A program made the translations under genes and the position numbers. A DNA stretch of 64,000 bases from Rhodococcus sp. 1163 (GTDB lineage: Bacteria > Actinomycetota > Actinomycetes > Mycobacteriales > Mycobacteriaceae): contig NZ_MKKX01000028.1 of assembly GCF_002091985.1 (NCBI RefSeq), positions 1-64,000 of the forward strand, given 5' to 3'. Shown here piece by piece: positions 47,345 through 56,926 of this stretch (position 1 is the stretch's first letter; each line of letters begins with the position of its first letter). A model generated the notes under the pieces. It searched no databases and had not been told where the DNA came from. It was given only the letters and a program-made list of their open reading frames with translations.

Positions 47345-47662
47345 CATCGAACCTCTTCCCCTTGTCCGCCTCACGTCACAGCATCATGATCGTGTCGGTC
47401 TCGACAATAGAGATCGGAGTCTGCGTCAGGTTCGGATCCGGTCTTTTTCGAGCGGCTGGGGGAGGGCTCCCACCACTGTCCGGTCGGCAAACCTCCCCTG
47501 ATGTCTACTGGGCCGATGGTCGATACCTTTACCCGTCGAACCAGCGGCGGCGTTCCACTGAGTGAGACTGTGCGGTACCGGTGTGGGTCGGCTCACAATC
47601 ATGAAGCCAGCGGACTGCCGGTGAGGCCGTCGGCTCGCGACTACCAGTAGATGGGGGCCGAC
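47345..47662. promoter_or_regulatory. Divergent promoter region, flavoprotein / phosphotriesterase
   Basis: A gap of 318 bp holding promoters for both genes. GGGGGCC just before the ATG at 47663 is the phosphotriesterase RBS. I see no strong palindrome, RNA gene or coding ORF. Confidence 0.4.
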
Positions 47663-48655
47663 ATGGCAGAAGTAGAGACCGTTCGTGGTTCGATCGACAC
47701 GGCCGCGCTTGGACGAACTTATATGCACGAGCACATCTTCATTCTCAACACCGAGATGCAGCAGAACTTTCCGGAAGAGTGGGGGGATGAAGACGAGCGT
47801 GTCGGCGACGCGGTCCTCAAATTGAAGGCACTGGCAGCGCAGGGTGTGCAGACAATTGTGGATCCGACGGTTGTGGGACTGGGCCGCTACATCCCGAGGG
47901 TCCAGCGCATCGCCGAACAGGTCCCCGAATTGAACATCGTGGTGGCTACCGGTTGCTACACCTTTACCGATGTTCCCTTCTACTTCCAACATCGGGGCCC
48001 GGCTCTGAACGCGATGATGGGCACGGAGGTTCCTGATCCGATGGTCGACCTCTTCGTCAAGGACATCACCGTGGGCATCGCTGGTACCGGAGTCCGGGCA
48101 GCTCTGCTCAAGTGCGCGATCGACGCCGAAGGCCTCAGGTCCGGCGTGGAAAGGGTGATGCGCGCGGTCGCCAAGGCGCATCATCTGACCGGCGCACCGA
48201 TCACCGTGCACACCCATCCGGAGAGCAAAACTGCTCTCGACGTCCAACGGGTGATGTGCGACGAGGAAGGTGTCAAGCCCGAGCGGATCGTCCTGGGGCA
48301 CAGCGGGGATAGCACCGACCTCGACCATTTGACCGACTTGGCGGAGCGTGGGTTCATCCTCGGGATGGATCGATTCGGTCTCGACGTCAATGTTTCTTTC
48401 GAGCAGCGGGCGGACACGCTGGTCGAAATGTGCCGACGCGGATTCGCCGAGCAAATGGTGCTTTCGCACGACGCGAATTGCTTCTTCGACTGGATGGACC
48501 CTCATCTCAAGGAGATGATGCCGGCCTTCGACTACCTGCATATCGGGAACAAAGTCCTCCCTTATGTGCGTGAGCATGGTGTCACCGAGGAACAGATCAC
48601 GACGATGCTGTTCGATGTTCCCCGCCGCTACTTCGAGAACGTCAGCACTTACTGA
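47663..48655 (+). CDS. Phosphotriesterase-family metal-dependent hydrolase
   Basis: A 330-residue amidohydrolase TIM barrel. All binuclear metal ligands are visible: H-x-H in TYMHEHIFIL, the bridging Lys in ALLKCAIDAEG, His in ITVHTHPES, His in IVLGHSGDS and Asp in VLSHDANCFF. Family members hydrolyse phosphotriesters, lactones or other esters; lactonase activity is the more usual native role. ATG 47663, after a GGGGG RBS, is preferred over the in-frame ATG 47651. Confidence 0.88.
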   Translation: MAEVETVRGSIDTAALGRTYMHEHIFILNTEMQQNFPEEWGDEDERVGDAVLKLKALAAQGVQTIVDPTVVGLGRYIPRVQRIAEQVPELNIVVATGCYTFTDVPFYFQHRGPALNAMMGTEVPDPMVDLFVKDITVGIAGTGVRAALLKCAIDAEGLRSGVERVMRAVAKAHHLTGAPITVHTHPESKTALDVQRVMCDEEGVKPERIVLGHSGDSTDLDHLTDLAERGFILGMDRFGLDVNVSFEQRADTLVEMCRRGFAEQMVLSHDANCFFDWMDPHLKEMMPAFDYLHIGNKVLPYVREHGVTEEQITTMLFDVPRRYFENVSTY

Positions 48656-48871: not shown

Positions 48872-49540
48872 ATGGCTGCCATCCTGTTCGGATCGATCAG
48901 CACACTTGCCGATACCTCCGAAATTCAACGACAAGCATTCAACGACGCCTTCGCCGCGCACGATCTCGGCTGGACCTGGGAGCGCAAGGACTACATCGAG
49001 ATGCTGGCGAGCAACGGCGGCGCGGCTCGCATCGCCGAATATGCACACTCTCGCGGTGAGGAAGTCGACTCCGCAGCAGTGCATTCCACGAAGTCGGAGA
49101 TCTTTCAGAAGCTGCTGGCCAACTCCGACGTCGACCCGCGCCCCGGCGTCGTCGAGACGATCGCCGATGCCAAGAAGCATGACGTCAAGGTCGGTCTCGT
49201 GACCACCACCTCCCCGGAAAACGTCAATGCACTGCTCGGCGCTCTGACTGCAGTCGACGTCGACTTGTTCGACGTCGTAGTCGATTCCGCGAGTGTCTCG
49301 CAAGGCAAGCCGGATCGGGCGGCGTACATGTTCGCCCTTGGACGCCTCGGCGAGAACGCGAAGAACTGCGTTGCTATCGAAGACAACGTCGGCGGCGTCG
49401 CTGCCGCCGTTGCTGCACACGTTCGCTGCGTCGCTTTTCCCAACGCGAACACGGTAGGGGGCGACTTCTCCGCGGCGGTGGAAACCGTCGATCGTCTCGA
49501 CGCGGATCGGCTCCGCTCGCTGACCGAAGGCAACCGATGA
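48872..49540 (+). CDS. HAD-superfamily protein lacking the catalytic aspartates
   Basis: A 222-residue CbbY/phosphoglucomutase-like HAD protein, first gene of the MAA operon. Motif II ([11 protein letters not shown]), motif III Lys (QGKPDRAAY) and motif IV ([14 protein letters not shown]) are present. Motif I reads [13 protein letters not shown], where the usual F-D-x-D-G-T should be: the nucleophile Asp is Gly and the acid/base Asp is Ile. It therefore should not be a normal phosphatase or mutase. It may be a binding or regulatory partner of the sugar-phosphate cyclase, whose start overlaps its stop by 4 nt, or use different chemistry. Confidence 0.85.
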
Positions 49541-50751
49541 GTTCCATGCAAGCGCAGGTCACAGCAACCGAACGCGCCTTCCACATCGAGGGATACGAAA
49601 AGATCGAGTACGACCTGCTCTACGTAGACGGTGTCTTCTCGGTGGGCAATACGGAACTGGCGGACAGCTACCGGCAGTACGGGCGGGCGCTCATGGTTGT
49701 CGACGAGGTCGTCTACGGAATCTACGGTGAGCAGATCCGTGCGTACTTCGAGCACCACGACATTGCGTTGACCGTGCTGCCGGTCAAGATCGCCGAGACC
49801 GCCAAGTCGCTCGAGACGTTCGAGCAGATCGTGGGCGAATTCGACAGGTTCGGTCTTGTGCGCACCGAACCGGTTCTGGTCGTCGGTGGTGGGCTCACTA
49901 CCGACGTCGCCGGGTACGCGTGCGCAAGCTACCGACGCAATACCCCGTACATCAGAATTCCGACGACGCTGATCGGATTGATCGATGCAAGCGTGTCCAT
50001 CAAGGTCGCCGTGAATTTCGGAAAGCACAAGAATCGTCTGGGCGCCTACCACGCTTCGCAAAGGGTCCTGTTGGACTTTTCGTTCCTCCGTACGCTCCCG
50101 GAGGATCAGGTCCGTAACGGCATGGCGGAGTTGATCAAGATCTCCGTGGTAGGGAACAGTGCAATTTTCGACATGCTCGACGAACACGGTCCGGAACTAC
50201 TCCGCACCAGATTCGGGCACCTCGATGGAACTCCCGAATTACGCGCTGTTGCAGACAGTCTGACGTACCAGGCCATCGACACCATGCTCGAACTCGAGGC
50301 GCCGAATCTGCACGAGATCGAACTCGATCGCGTTATCGCCTTCGGCCACACGTGGAGCCCGACGCTGGAATTGACGCCACCGGCGCCGTTCTTTCACGGA
50401 CATGCGATCAATATCGACATGGCGTTGTCGACCACTCTCGCCGAGCAGCGCGGGCACATCACCTCCGAAGAGCGCGATCGAGTACTCGGGACCATGTCCC
50501 GCCTCGGCCTCGCGCTCGACAGTGACTACCTGACGCCCGAATTACTCTCCGAGGCAACAGGTTCGATCCTCAAGACTCGCGATGGCATTCTGCGCGCCGC
50601 AGTTCCCGACCCGATCGGAGCGTGCCGCTTCCTGAACGATGTGACGACGGCAGAGCTCGCCGACGTGTTGACGTTGCACAAGAAGATCTGCTTGGACTTC
50701 GACCGCGGCGGAGACGGAGTAGACACGTTCACCTCCGCTCAGAGCCGGTGA
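49537..50751 (+). CDS. mysA: Sugar-phosphate cyclase, probable demethyl-4-deoxygadusol synthase
   Basis: A 404-residue dehydroquinate-synthase-superfamily protein. It shows [21 protein letters not shown] (NAD/metal loop), [52 protein letters not shown], and [11 protein letters not shown] with a metal His. The [14 protein letters not shown] and [10 protein letters not shown] blocks distinguish C7-cyclitol synthases from true dehydroquinate synthases. Followed at once by an O-methyltransferase, it is best read as demethyl-4-deoxygadusol synthase, acting on sedoheptulose 7-phosphate in MAA synthesis. 2-epi-5-epi-valiolone synthase is the main alternative by sequence, but context argues against it. 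Confidence 0.87.
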
Positions 50752-51566
50752 GTGACATCGACTCTCGCACAAAACAGAAGCGGCCGGTCACGCCGTCGAC
50801 CATCCTTGCCGCGGAATTGCGGGAGGTGACCGAACTGCTGGCAGATGTGGCTTCGATTCCGGACGTGCTGATGAGCCGGATCAGCCGCATGCGAGATCTG
50901 GCTGCGGGGCTCGATCCGTACCTCGAACGCTGTACCACGGAAGAGTCTCCGGCCCTGGCAGCGTTGTCGCAGCGGACGCATGCTGCCGACTGGACTTCGC
51001 GGCCAGTGGAGCAGGAAATGTTGTCCGGGCAGGTCGAGGGCCAGTTCCTGAAGTTCCTGGTGCACATGACCGGAGCGAGAAGAGTGCTCGAGATCGGCAT
51101 GTTCACCGGCTACTCCGCGCTGGCCATGGCAGAGGCTCTCCCGCCGAACGGGGAAGTGGTGGCCTGTGAGGTCGACGAGTTCGTGGCCGACTTCGCGCGG
51201 GAGAGCTTTGCAAAATCTCCGGCGGGCGCGCGCATCGTCGTCGAAGTCGGGCCGGCCTCGGAAACTCTGCGTCGGCTCGATGGAACCTCACGTCCCTTCG
51301 ACCTCGTATTCGTCGATGCTGACAAAACCGGATATCTCGACTACTACCGGATGCTGCTCGATACCGATCTGCTGACCGCGGACGCAGTCATCGTCGTGGA
51401 CAACACGTTGATGCAGGGTCAGCCCTACGCGCCTGCGGACGGACGGACGGGTAACGGTGACGCGATCGCGGACTTCAACCGCTACGTTGCCGAGGACCCC
51501 CGCGTCGAGCAGATTCTTCTGCCGTTGCGAGACGGTGTGACGCTCGTTCGACGGGTATCGGCGTAA
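50748..51566 (+). CDS. mysB: O-methyltransferase of MAA synthesis
   Basis: A 272-residue class I methyltransferase of the CCoAOMT/COMT-like type. [23 protein letters not shown] is the SAM-binding entry, followed by [28 protein letters not shown] with the metal-binding Asp pair, and [11 protein letters not shown]. It should methylate demethyl-4-deoxygadusol to 4-deoxygadusol. The GTG at 50748 overlaps the mysA stop (GTGA); longer frames run inside mysA. A Ser/Thr/Pro-rich N-terminus of about 60 residues precedes the fold. Confidence 0.88.
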
Positions 51567-52882
51567 TGGGCATGGCGTCGTCGACGGTACGCACGGTCGG
51601 GGCGTTGGCAGGTTTGCTCGCCACGTTGCCACTCGATCTTGCCGTGGTGGGCTATGCCCTGGCGCGGCGCTTCGATCCACCCTTCGGTCCGCGCGTCCAT
51701 CCGATGGGTGCGGCGAGCCGGACGGTGCTGATCAGTGGTGGAAAAATGACCAAAGCGCTCCAGCTGGCACGGTCGTTCCATCTCGCCGGCCACCGCGTCG
51801 TGCTCGTCGAATCATCCAAGTATCGGTTCACCGGACATCGGTTCTCACGGGCAGTCGATCGCTTCTATTGCGTGCCGGAGCCCACCGATCCCGGATACGC
51901 GAAAGCCTTGCGCGACGTGGTCGTTCGAGAAGGTGTCGACGTCTTCGTTCCGGTGGCGAGTCCGGCCGCGAGTATCCACGATGCCGACGCGCGGAAGATA
52001 CTCGACGGATACTGCGAAGTCGTGCACGCAGACTCCGACACCGTGCGCATGCTCGACGACAAATCGCGATTCTCGGAGACGGCGGAGTCGATGGGACTAC
52101 GGGTTCCGCACTGGGAGCGGATCACCGACCCGCGGCAGATCGAGACGTTCGATTTCGCTCCTGGGCGTGAGTACATCCTCAAACGTATCGCCTACAACCC
52201 CGTCGGGCGGATGGATCTGACGCGCTTGTCCGGCAGCACCCGGAAGCGGAATGTCGAGTTCGCACGCAGCCTCGCCATGACCGAGGACGACCCGTGGATC
52301 TTGCAGGAGTTCATCTCCGGTCAGGAGTACTGCACCCACGGAACCGTGCGCAACGGCGCGCTGCAGGTCTACGCATGCTGCGAGTCCTCGGCTTTCCAGG
52401 TCAACTACGAGATGATCGACAAGCCCGAGATTCGTTCCTGGGTAGAGGCATTCGTCAATACGCTCGGCGTCACCGGCCAGTTGTCCTTCGATTTCATCGA
52501 GGCTTCGGACGGGCATGCCTATGCGATCGAATGCAATCCGCGCACGCACTCGGCGATCACGATGTTCTACGACCACCCGGATCTCGCTGCTGCCTACCTC
52601 GAGGACGGTCACTCGGTCGCCGAACCCACCCAGTCCTCGCGCCCGACGTACTGGATCTATCACGAACTTTGGCGATTGCTCACCGAGCCGCGGCGCAGTC
52701 ATCGACTCCGGGTGATTCTGAGCGGAACCGATGCGGTGTACGAAAGTTGGGACCCGTTGCCCTACCTGCTGGTTCATCACCTGCAGATTCCTTCGCTGTT
52801 GCTGAAGAACCTGAAGTCCGGGCGAGGTTGGACGCGAATAGATTTCAACATCGGCAAACTCGTCGAGAATGGAGGGGACTGA
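51566..52882 (+). CDS. mysC: ATP-grasp ligase of MAA synthesis (mycosporine-glycine synthase type)
   Basis: A 438-residue ATP-grasp protein. A hydrophobic N-terminal stretch (VGALAGLLATLPLDLAVVGYALA) may be a membrane anchor. The pre-ATP-grasp domain has TVLISGGKMTKALQLARSF, then the core EYILKRIAYNPVGRMDLT, WILQEFISGQEYCTHG, and the metal site FIEASDGHAYAIECNPRTHSA. By homology of operon order it should condense glycine with 4-deoxygadusol to mycosporine-glycine. It starts one base into the mysB stop (TAATG). Confidence 0.87.
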   Translation: MGMASSTVRTVGALAGLLATLPLDLAVVGYALARRFDPPFGPRVHPMGAASRTVLISGGKMTKALQLARSFHLAGHRVVLVESSKYRFTGHRFSRAVDRFYCVPEPTDPGYAKALRDVVVREGVDVFVPVASPAASIHDADARKILDGYCEVVHADSDTVRMLDDKSRFSETAESMGLRVPHWERITDPRQIETFDFAPGREYILKRIAYNPVGRMDLTRLSGSTRKRNVEFARSLAMTEDDPWILQEFISGQEYCTHGTVRNGALQVYACCESSAFQVNYEMIDKPEIRSWVEAFVNTLGVTGQLSFDFIEASDGHAYAIECNPRTHSAITMFYDHPDLAAAYLEDGHSVAEPTQSSRPTYWIYHELWRLLTEPRRSHRLRVILSGTDAVYESWDPLPYLLVHHLQIPSLLLKNLKSGRGWTRIDFNIGKLVENGGD

Positions 52883-53916
52883 TGTCACCGACATCGGTAC
52901 TGGTCCTGGCGGGTTCGGCAGTGGACGACTTCAACGCCGATCTCTCGCGCGTCTACGCCGGGGGATTCCTCGATGCGTTCGCCGAGAACCCGGCCTACAA
53001 TCTTCGGATCGCGTTCGTCACCCCGGACGGGTGCTGGCGCTTTCCGGACAACATTGAATCGTCGAGTATCGAAGCAGCGCAACCTGTATCGCTGAGTCGC
53101 GCAATCTCGGAGATATCGACCTGGCATATCGACGTCGTCGTTCCCCAGATGTTCTGCAGGCCCGGGATGACAACGTACCGCTCGCTGTTCGAACTGCTCG
53201 GCATTCCGTATGTGGGGAACCGTCCTGAAGTGATGGCGATGACGGCAGAGAAGAACATTGCCCGCGCTGTCGTCGCGGCAGCCGGCGTCGCCGTTCCCGC
53301 CGGGGTTCTCCTTTCCCGCGGCGACCTGACGAGAACAGAATTGTCGACGGCTATGGTGCCGGTCGTGGTCAAGCCCGTCGATTCCGATAATTCGATGGGT
53401 GTGACACTGGTTCGCGATCCGGCCGAACTCGCCGCAGCAGTGAACGAAGCGTTGAAGTACTCGCAATCGGCACTCATCGAGTCGTATATCGAATTGGGCC
53501 GCGAAGTGCGCTGCGGAATCATCGTCCGCAACGGTGACCTGGTGTGCCTACCGTTGGAGGAGTACGCCGTCGACGAGGTGTCGAACCCGATCCGGGGCCG
53601 TGCCGACAAGCTCGACCGGACCGATGACGGTGAGCTGTACCTCGTTGCCAAGGAGTCCACTCGCGCCTGGATGGTCGAGAGCGACGATCCCATCACCGAG
53701 AAAGTCTTCGATGCTGCCAGGCGATGCCACCTCGCGCTGGGGTGCCGTCAGTACAGCTTGTTCGATTTCCGTATCGATCGAGACGGAAACCCGTGGTTCC
53801 TCGAAGCCGGTCTCTACTGCTCGTACTCCCCGAGCAGTGTCATCGCCGTCATGGCGGCGGCGGCAGGCATTCCCCTCGACGAACTGTTCGCCCTGGCGAT
53901 AGCCGAGGTGAACTGA
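52882..53916 (+). CDS. mysD: D-Ala-D-Ala-ligase-like MAA synthetase
   Basis: A 344-residue ATP-grasp ligase of the Ddl fold. The N-terminal domain has VLVLAGSAVDDFNADLSRVYAGGF, then PVVVKPVDSDNSMGVTLV, ALIESYIELGREVRCGI, and SLFDFRIDRDGNPWFLEAGL followed by CSYSPSSVI. The last block differs from cell-wall Ddl enzymes, which have E-x-N-x-x-P-G, so it is a specialised member. It should add a second amino acid (often Ser, Thr or Ala) to mycosporine-glycine to give an imino-mycosporine. It overlaps mysC by one base (TGATG). Confidence 0.87.
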   Translation: MSPTSVLVLAGSAVDDFNADLSRVYAGGFLDAFAENPAYNLRIAFVTPDGCWRFPDNIESSSIEAAQPVSLSRAISEISTWHIDVVVPQMFCRPGMTTYRSLFELLGIPYVGNRPEVMAMTAEKNIARAVVAAAGVAVPAGVLLSRGDLTRTELSTAMVPVVVKPVDSDNSMGVTLVRDPAELAAAVNEALKYSQSALIESYIELGREVRCGIIVRNGDLVCLPLEEYAVDEVSNPIRGRADKLDRTDDGELYLVAKESTRAWMVESDDPITEKVFDAARRCHLALGCRQYSLFDFRIDRDGNPWFLEAGLYCSYSPSSVIAVMAAAAGIPLDELFALAIAEVN

Positions 53917-54677
53917 TGAAACACGAGATTCTGCACCCGTTCGGGGTCCGTATCACCGAAGTCGACCCCGCCCGTTCGACTACCGAAGACGTCGAGGAGT
54001 TCGCGACCCTTCTCGCTCGGCACGGCGTCGCAGTCATGCCCGATCACGAGATCGACGACGACCAGTTCCTGGCGTTTCTTCGTTCCTTCGGCGAGCTGAT
54101 GTTCACCGAAGGGGAGAGCCCGCTCGATGGCTATCCCGATCTCAACGTGATCAGCAATGTCGGAAGATCGACCCCACCGAAGTCGACGTTTCACGTCGAT
54201 ACCACCTACATCGAGCACCCGCCTGCCTACACTTCGCTGCGAGCAGTGCAAGTCCCGACCACGGGCGGCCAGACGCTGTTCAGTAATCAGTACGACGCCT
54301 ATGACACTTTGCCAGCCGAGATCCGCGCCGACATCGACGGGCGAACTGTCACACACGTGGTGACCGGACTGGAAGGATTCGAGGATGTGTCAGCGAAGCA
54401 TCCGCTGGTCCGAGTGCATCCGATCTCCGGACGGAAGGCTCTGTACCTTTCCGCGCCTGCCCGCTGTGTGGCGGTGAGCGGCAAGACGGAAGCCGAAGCA
54501 GCAACGCTGATCCGCCATCTCGTGGAGCACTCGACACGACCGGAAAACGTGCTCGAGCACTCGTGGTCACCCGGTGACGTCGTCATCTGGGACAACCGCT
54601 GCGTCATGCACCGCGCGGACCACAGCGGTGTCGTCGGTGACCGCGTAATGCACCGCGGAATGGTGGCCGAGAGCTGA
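53916..54677 (+). CDS. TauD/TfdA family Fe(II)/2-oxoglutarate dioxygenase
   Basis: A 253-residue oxygenase at the end of the MAA operon, overlapping mysD by one base. FHVDTTYIEHPPAYTSLRA holds the H-x-D metal ligands, VIWDNRCVMHRAD the distal His, and VMHRGM the 2-oxoglutarate Arg. It is of the TauD type, not the phytanoyl-CoA type used by the cyanobacterial palythine enzyme MysH. The strict coupling suggests it tailors the MAA, for instance by hydroxylation, oxidative decarboxylation or demethylation. No specific reaction can be read from the sequence. Confidence 0.85.
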   Translation: MKHEILHPFGVRITEVDPARSTTEDVEEFATLLARHGVAVMPDHEIDDDQFLAFLRSFGELMFTEGESPLDGYPDLNVISNVGRSTPPKSTFHVDTTYIEHPPAYTSLRAVQVPTTGGQTLFSNQYDAYDTLPAEIRADIDGRTVTHVVTGLEGFEDVSAKHPLVRVHPISGRKALYLSAPARCVAVSGKTEAEAATLIRHLVEHSTRPENVLEHSWSPGDVVIWDNRCVMHRADHSGVVGDRVMHRGMVAES

Positions 54678-54745: not shown

Positions 54746-56926
54746 ATGGCCGAACCGATCGACGAGCACTTTCTGGATCGAATCGGTTCCCTCTGCTCGG
54801 GCAGTAGCGCGGTGAGCCGGTCAGCGAAAACCGACCGCGTCCTCGAGCTGTTCGACGCCCAACTCGGCAGCAGACATCTCGATCTCGCAGCGCGCTGGCT
54901 CCGCTCGATCGGCCGAGGTTTCTACACGATCGGTAGCGCCGGACACGAGAGCAACGCAGCCGTCGCCGGTGCACTACGACCGACGGACCCGGCGTTGTTG
55001 CACTACCGCTCGGGAGCCTTCTACCTCGAACGTGCACGCCAGGGCGGTGGTAGCGATCCGATACGCGACGTCCTCGAAGGCCTCGTCGCGGCGACGAGCG
55101 AACCGATGTCCGGTGGCCGTCACAAAGTGTTCGGCCGAGCCGATCTCGCCGTCATTCCACAGACCTCGACCATTGCCTCGCATCTTCCCCGCGCAGTCGG
55201 CGTCGCATTCTCGATTCCACGAGCGAAAAAGCTCGGTGTGCCCTCACCGTGGCCTACGGATGCTGTCGTGCTCTGCAGTTTCGGCGACGCGTCGGCCAAC
55301 CATTCGACGGCCCTGGGGGCCATCAACACCGCTGTTCACTCGGCTTATCAGGGCGTGCCGTTGCCGCTGCTGTTCGTCTGCGAGGACAACGGCATCGGAA
55401 TCAGCGTGCGGACACCGGCGGGTTGGATCGCGTCCAACTTCGCCGAACGCCGCGGGCTCGAATACTTCTGCGCCGACGGCAGTGACCTGCACGAAGTTCT
55501 CGCGACGGCGACGGCCGCAGCGACGTGGGTGCGAACGCACCGCAAGCCGGCTTTTCTGCATCTGCGGACCGTCCGCTTGATGGGCCACGCCGGATCCGAC
55601 GTCGAATCTGCGTACCGTGGAGCTTCGGAAATTTCTGCCGACTATGCGCGAGATCCGGTTCTCTGCACGGCACGGTGGTTGATCGAGAATGGCGCTCTCT
55701 CGGCCGAGGGCGTGCTGGAGCTTTACGAAGCCAAGCGTGCTGAGGTGATCGGGGCTGCACGTGAAATCGCGAAGCTACCGCACCTCGGTTCCGCCGCGGA
55801 GGTGATGAAGCCGCTTTCGGAGATGATGCGCGACATCGTCTCGACGCCGCAGGCAGGCTCTACATCGTCTGCGGCAGCGATTGAGGCGGGGGCAGGGGCT
55901 CCGCTGACGTTGGCGCAGGCGGTGAACCGAGCGTTGCTCGAGGTTCTCGAACGCTATCGGCAGGCTGTTCTGTTCGGTGAGGATGTCGCCAGGAAGGGTG
56001 GGGTCTACGGCGTCACGCGCGGGTTGCTGGACAGCGTGGGGCCTACGCGTGTGTTCGACACCGTTCTCGACGAGCAGGCGATACTTGGACTCGCTGCGGG
56101 AGCAGGCATTTCGGGATTGCTGCCGATTGCGGAGATTCAGTATCTGGCCTACCTGCACAACGCGGCTGATCAGATTCGGGGTGAAGCGGCGACACTGCAG
56201 TTCTTTTCGAATCGGCAGTACCGAAACCCGATGGTGGTCCGTATCGCTGCCTACGGCTATCAGAAAGGCTTCGGCGGACACTTTCACAACGACAATGCTG
56301 TTGCAGCGCTGAGGGATATCCCCGGGATCGTCATAGCGTCGCCGTCGCGGCCAGACGATGCTGCCGCGATGTTGCTTGCCTGCTCCGATGCAGCGGTGCG
56401 TCACGGTGCGGTGTGCGTCTTTCTCGAGCCGATTGCCTTGTATCACACCAAAGATCTGTACATCGAGGGTGACGGGGAGTGGATGAGCAGCTATCCGACC
56501 GAACCCGTGGAGGTCGGCCGCGCGCGGGTGTACGGCGAGGGAAACGATCTGACGATCGTCACGTTCGGCAACGGTGTCCGGATGAGCCTGCGCTGTGCGC
56601 GGGAGCTCGAAAAGGTCGGCATCGGTGTACGCGTGGTGGATATACGCTGGATCGCTCCGCTGCCCATCGCGGACATCGAACATCATGCTCGTGCGACCGG
56701 TCGCGTCCTGGTGGCCGACGAGACTCGCAGCACGGGCGGAGTCGGTGAAGGAGTGATCGCGGCGCTGGCCGACGCAGGCTTCGACGGCATCGTCCGCAGG
56801 GTGGCGAGCAAGGACAGCTTCATCCCCCTGGGCGACGCGGCACTCGAGGTTCTGCTGTCCGAGGACGGCATCATCGACGCTTCAGGCCGAATCTTTGACG
56901 GTGTCGACGAAGGGGGCGAGCAGTGA
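54746..56926 (+). CDS. Fused 2-oxoacid dehydrogenase E1 (alpha-beta)
   Basis: A 726-residue thiamine-diphosphate enzyme in which E1-alpha and E1-beta are one chain. The alpha part has YTIGSAGHESNAAVAGAL and the TPP motif FGDASANHSTALGAINTA. The beta part starts near residue 388 (LTLAQAVNRALLEVLERY) and has VLFGEDVARKGGVYGVT, FGNGVRMSLRCA and VRVVDIRWIAPLP. It resembles branched-chain oxoacid dehydrogenase E1; no E2 or E3 gene is close. TAGAAT (54735-54740) ends six bases before the ATG and there is no RBS, suggesting a leaderless transcript from its own promoter rather than read-through from the MAA operon. Confidence 0.88.
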   Translation: MAEPIDEHFLDRIGSLCSGSSAVSRSAKTDRVLELFDAQLGSRHLDLAARWLRSIGRGFYTIGSAGHESNAAVAGALRPTDPALLHYRSGAFYLERARQGGGSDPIRDVLEGLVAATSEPMSGGRHKVFGRADLAVIPQTSTIASHLPRAVGVAFSIPRAKKLGVPSPWPTDAVVLCSFGDASANHSTALGAINTAVHSAYQGVPLPLLFVCEDNGIGISVRTPAGWIASNFAERRGLEYFCADGSDLHEVLATATAAATWVRTHRKPAFLHLRTVRLMGHAGSDVESAYRGASEISADYARDPVLCTARWLIENGALSAEGVLELYEAKRAEVIGAAREIAKLPHLGSAAEVMKPLSEMMRDIVSTPQAGSTSSAAAIEAGAGAPLTLAQAVNRALLEVLERYRQAVLFGEDVARKGGVYGVTRGLLDSVGPTRVFDTVLDEQAILGLAAGAGISGLLPIAEIQYLAYLHNAADQIRGEAATLQFFSNRQYRNPMVVRIAAYGYQKGFGGHFHNDNAVAALRDIPGIVIASPSRPDDAAAMLLACSDAAVRHGAVCVFLEPIALYHTKDLYIEGDGEWMSSYPTEPVEVGRARVYGEGNDLTIVTFGNGVRMSLRCARELEKVGIGVRVVDIRWIAPLPIADIEHHARATGRVLVADETRSTGGVGEGVIAALADAGFDGIVRRVASKDSFIPLGDAALEVLLSEDGIIDASGRIFDGVDEGGEQ

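Follow-up and report, generated by a model that had tools for sequence, protein, structure and literature searches.

Does the TauD-type gene that closes an operon for mycosporine-like amino acids (MAAs, a class of sunscreens) in Rhodococcus sp. 1163 encode an oxygenase that tailors the MAA product, and if so, by which reaction? The window, that is, the whole 64,000-nucleotide stretch of contig NZ_MKKX01000028.1 that was analysed, contains a six-gene operon in the order HAD-mysA-mysB-mysC-mysD-tauD (Table 1), in which every junction overlaps (ATGA, GTGA, TAATG, TGATG and TGATG). A sequence-only reading had placed tauD as the terminal gene of this operon and had proposed its translational coupling to mysD; both points are borne out, as tauD is the last of six overlapping genes and its ATG start codon at 53916 overlaps the mysD stop codon at 53914-53916 within a TGATG. 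The operon includes mysD, and it lacks an NRPS gene and a second methyltransferase gene. A downstream gene for an E1-type dehydrogenase was rejected as a further operon member, because just the three nearest relatives (L097-L099) have it next to tauD, and a phosphotriesterase-family gene lies just upstream of the operon.

Table 1. Coordinates of the operon genes, of the active-site codons of tauD and of further genes mentioned in the text.
Feature	Location	Position	Strand	Basis
CbbY-like protein of HAD fold, opens the operon	window	48872-49540	+	PF00702/PF13419
mysA, demethyl-4-deoxygadusol synthase-type dehydroquinate-synthase homologue	window	49537-50751	+	PF01761, PF24621
mysB, O-methyltransferase, GTG start overlapping the mysA stop	window	50748-51566	+	PF01596, 173 bits
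mysC, ATP-grasp, mycosporine-glycine formation	window	51566-52882	+	NF005315, 421 bits; syntenic in all relatives
mysD, D-Ala-D-Ala-ligase-like ATP-grasp, second amino acid addition	window	52882-53916	+	PF07478
tauD, TauD/TfdA-family Fe(II)/2-oxoglutarate oxygenase, 253 aa	window	53916-54677	+	PF02668, active-site alignment, structure model, distribution
H93-x-D95 iron-binding motif codons (FHVDT)	window	54192-54200	+	alignment to E. coli TauD H99/D101; invariant
H232-R243 codons (distal iron ligand and 2-oxoglutarate-binding Arg)	window	54609-54644	+	alignment to E. coli TauD H255/R266; invariant
Phosphotriesterase-family gene	window	47651-48655	+	PF02126, 278 bits
E1-type dehydrogenase gene	window	54746-56926		
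tauD pseudogene, Rhodococcus sp. 1168	L098	10336-10818		
tauD orthologs in cyanobacterial MAGs	L162; L166; L174	3847-4635; 3785-4573; 3658-4470	-	counter the statement of absence in PMC11888242
Third TauD-like type, 235 aa, cyanobacterium	L265	8112-8819	-	
PhyH-family (MysH-type) gene, Nostoc sp. HK-01 plasmid	L180	8313-9116		

The identity of the gene product is clear from its sequence, which makes it a genuine Fe(II)/2-oxoglutarate oxygenase of the TauD/TfdA family. It scores 194.8 bits against the Pfam TauD model PF02668, far over the cut-off of 27, and in an alignment with E. coli TauD (reference sequence from the K-12 genome record) the iron and 2-oxoglutarate set is complete, with H93, D95, H232 and R243 corresponding to H99, D101, H255 and R266. 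In addition, T120 aligns with T126 and R247 with R270, and all six of these residues are invariant in 51 orthologs. The family assignment, the gene boundaries and the full H-x-D...H...R set of the earlier reading thus stand. Comparison with relatives that are 92-93% identical yielded dN values of 0.033-0.036 and dS values of 0.19-0.25, and the gene is under purifying selection. An AlphaFold model (mean pLDDT 94, pTM 0.92) has PlaO1, AAD-1/RdpA and TauD as its top PDB matches with TM-scores of about 0.9, and the E-values of 5e-25 for PlaO1 and 2.5e-23 for TauD place the predicted structure in the double-stranded beta-helix fold of the TauD family. PlaO1, from the phenalinolactone pathway, and AAD-1/RdpA are the closest solved structures (29-35% identity); the substrate of PlaO1 is a terpene glycoside precursor, and those of AAD-1/RdpA are aryloxy acids.

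The family name and the NCBIfam model for taurine dioxygenase, against which the protein scores 137 bits, would be in keeping with a taurine dioxygenase, or another sulfonate or herbicide-type dioxygenase, that stands beside the MAA genes by chance. The NCBIfam score, however, is far under the equivalog cut-off of 313, and the E. coli enzyme shares the fold, the iron and 2-oxoglutarate ligands and R270 with the protein of the window, but only 29% of its sequence. Of the taurine-site residues compared, H70, Y73, N95, F206 and R270 align with T64, E67, K89, R183 and R247, so that R270 alone is kept. We infer from this alignment that T64, E67, K89 and R183 line the substrate pocket. E67 and R183 are invariant among the 51 orthologs, position 89 is lysine or arginine in 50 of them, and R183 occurs in none of the 13 other TauD-family proteins compared. 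The basic residues at or near the predicted substrate positions (K/R89, R183 and R247) suggest a site that would suit a dicarboxylate.

The distribution of the gene bears on the same question. Among 201 genomes of the family, orthologs were accepted at a score of at least 565 bits for mysC (next best 125) and at least 313 bits for tauD (next best 152). mysC was present in 30 genomes, covering six genera, and an intact tauD accompanied it in 29 of these, always about 5 kb or less away; the remaining one, Rhodococcus sp. 1168, carries a tauD remnant at the same place. No tauD ortholog was found in the 171 family genomes without mysC, which gives a Fisher p of about 4e-34 for the association by a statistic that ignores kinship. 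In a sample of 394 genomes from the class, ten had mysC; the search recovered tauD in eight of them, in a ninth (G474) the gene is interrupted by assembly Ns, and the tenth (G225) lacks tauD. Furthermore, when mysC loci of GTDB genomes were ranked by match, 78 of the top 80, a set that favours close relatives, contain tauD, the remnant being counted among the 78; the two without it come from Aeromicrobium sp. Root472D3 (L110), in whose genome nothing matches PF02668, and from a Synechococcales MAG. The distances between TauD and the Mys proteins are positively correlated (0.58-0.77), values that also reflect species history. The presence of tauD thus follows the MAA pathway almost perfectly, in a near-exclusive co-inheritance, and since the gene also ends the MAA operon, no other substrate of the encoded enzyme is nearly as likely as an MAA. 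Because tauD orthologs are confined to genomes with mysC, the distribution joins the taurine-site residues and the NCBIfam cut-off in ruling out a taurine or sulfonate role, which is largely refuted and retains only a minute chance of being correct.

The place of tauD differs between lineages: it can follow mysD, lie between mysB and mysC, stand upstream of the HAD gene or be divergent, but it is always in the cluster, which argues for a functional tie and not an inherited gene order. Other parts of the clusters vary as well. Four clusters of the same layout (L095, L137, L140 and L157) have no mysB match between mysA and mysC, and an O-methyltransferase encoded elsewhere may serve there. In the Mycolicibacterium chubuense group (L148-L151), a second O-methyltransferase, with 36-40% identity to MysB, is encoded downstream of the cluster on the opposite strand.

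The insertion between mysB and mysC, seen in L161, L165, L168, L169, L173 and L175, would agree with an enzyme that takes 4-deoxygadusol or mycosporine-glycine as its substrate, ahead of the MysD step. Such an early step is nevertheless quite improbable, as tauD directly follows mysD in 65 of the 80 loci and mysABCD persists without a working tauD in Aeromicrobium Root472D3, G225 and Rhodococcus sp. 1168 (L098), from which it follows that the core pathway can do without tauD. In Rhodococcus sp. 1168, one deletion has removed the HxD segment of tauD and a second one the distal histidine, while the remaining genes of the MAA operon look intact.

It is the product of MysA-D that the TauD-type enzyme probably tailors, and we consider it fairly probable that, on the model of MysH, it does so by oxidizing the glycine arm and cleaving its C-N bond to give a palythine-type MAA. 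The starting compound would be a bis-substituted MAA, such as shinorine, formed by MysA-D. The enzyme would hydroxylate the alpha carbon of its glycine arm, in line with what has been proposed for MysH and MysI (PMC10510106). The resulting carbinolamine would collapse with loss of glyoxylate, an amino group would stay behind, and the product would be of the palythine type; palythine-serine, which absorbs at about 320 nm, is one example. We infer both that tauD is the responsible gene and that it targets the glycine arm, and the chemistry is drawn from the analogy with MysH.

Oxidation of an MAA at another site would give an identical genomic signature. The enzyme could hydroxylate or desaturate the second amino acid, decarboxylate an arm oxidatively or hydroxylate the ring; each of these reactions would lead to a non-palythine MAA and fits the co-inheritance data equally well, and the wider TauD family performs hydroxylations and other oxidations (PlaO1, ScoE and AAD relatives). 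What speaks against these possibilities, and makes them unlikely, is the product spectrum of a related operon. According to a 2018 meeting abstract by Osborn and Mahmud, known through its citation in PMC11888242, the operon of R. fascians D188, with HAD and TauD genes and otherwise unpublished, yielded shinorine, palythine and palythine-serine in S. coelicolor; the abstract as cited there mentions no other oxidized MAA. This second-hand result concerns the whole operon, in which TauD was not isolated and to which host enzymes could contribute. The type strain of Rhodococcus fascians, NBRC 12155 (L105), has the same operon, and its TauD is 66% identical to that of the window.

The proposed glycine-arm cleavage invites comparison with the MAA oxygenases named so far. 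MysH of Nostoc linckia, of the phytanoyl-CoA dioxygenase family, is likewise an Fe/2-oxoglutarate oxygenase of MAA clusters, makes palythines and is likely the functional equivalent of the window enzyme; it belongs to PF05721, however, as does the MysH-type protein of Nostoc HK-01, whereas Pfam reports PF02668 and no PF05721 for the window protein. Membership in MysH is thereby ruled out, as the sequence-only reading had recognized. Moreover, MysH was not found in any of the 100 tauD-type loci examined, which is expected if tauD fills the role of MysH. In Nostoc sp. HK-01 the PhyH-family gene, whose product is annotated as hypothetical, lies on a plasmid and is flanked by mysC and mysD.

The sequence-only reading had taken MysH as the known MAA-tailoring oxygenase, which leaves out MysI, a cyanobacterial MAA oxygenase of TauD/TfdA type named in 2023 (PMC10510106). 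MysI of Nostoc sp. UHCC 0926 resembles the TauD of the window in its PF02668 domain, its place in an MAA cluster and its proposed C-N cleavage on the glycine arm (PMC10510106). Similarity searches of plasmids for MysI returned nothing useful, and MysI sequences were located by gene context, namely MysF-type methyltransferase and NRPS neighbours in Nostoc-type genomes with several mysC copies. The context-identified proteins have about 387 aa compared with 253 aa, share 17% identity with the window protein and have HxE where the latter has HxD. MysI is also partnered by MysF and the NRPS MysE, neither of which is encoded beside the tauD of the window. In the phylogenetic tree, the TauD orthologs form a clade with support of 100/99 that excludes the MysI clade (99/97); one tree row (own_par_L004, a paralog with a branch length of 10) is an artefact and was given no weight. 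The separate clade and the missing mysF and mysE neighbours rule out that the window gene is a MysI. A third TauD-like type with an HxE motif is found in a cyanobacterium, between mysC and a MysF-like methyltransferase gene (L265).

The association with MAA clusters and the palythine hypothesis have already been published, so that the novelty implied by the sequence-only reading does not hold. In 2025, GATOR-GC (PMC11888242) described HAD and TauD/TfdA genes in actinobacterial MAA clusters and proposed a MysH-like function, two years after MysI had been named. The window, whose DHQS/O-MT/ATP-grasp cluster contains both a PF02668 gene and a HAD gene, falls into that group: it shares the gene family, the operon partners including HAD and a near relative (L105), and its gene is just another instance. 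The same paper states that HAD and TauD are absent from Cyanobacteriota (PMC11888242), but three cyanobacterial MAG contigs carry tauD orthologs and HAD divergent from mysABCD. The GC contents of these contigs are 0.46-0.50, and the MAGs may be misbinned. The literature searched contained no direct assay of the window TauD or of any ortholog. New here are the exclusivity counts, the clade apart from MysI, the natural losses, the cyanobacterial orthologs and a HAD partner that has lost both catalytic aspartates.

This HAD gene is present in exactly those 30 of the 201 family genomes that have mysC. Clusters in which tauD is missing or no longer functional (L098, L110 and G225) have it as well, which makes it a core member of the pathway and not a partner of the TauD step. 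The nearest solved relative of its product is CbbY, in which motif I reads DVDGT (DxDGT); in the window protein the aligned stretch is GSIST. Gly7 and Ser8 of this stretch do not vary among the 73 MAA-cluster homologues in which the region is covered, and K146, the lysine of motif III, and E170-D171, the Glu-Asp of motif IV, are retained. Judged from these residues, the protein is unlikely to work as a normal HAD phosphatase. The literature searched yielded no comment on the loss of this catalytic motif.

Taken together, the actinobacterial TauD may be an independently recruited palythine-forming oxygenase apart from MysH and MysI, and the invariant HAD protein, having lost its nucleophile, may serve a new, non-phosphatase role in MAA synthesis; that both hold is a tentative proposal, to which we give somewhat less than an even chance. 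If the palythine function is confirmed, oxygenases of unrelated branches (MysH, MysI and the TauD described here) would all form palythines, a clear case of convergent recruitment, and tauD would offer a compact enzyme for the production of a 320-nm sunscreen in engineered hosts. The natural clusters in which tauD is absent or deleted predict shinorine-type products. Finally, the loss of the catalytic aspartates in a strictly conserved HAD-fold partner points to a binding role or to an unrecognised step in actinobacterial MAA synthesis.
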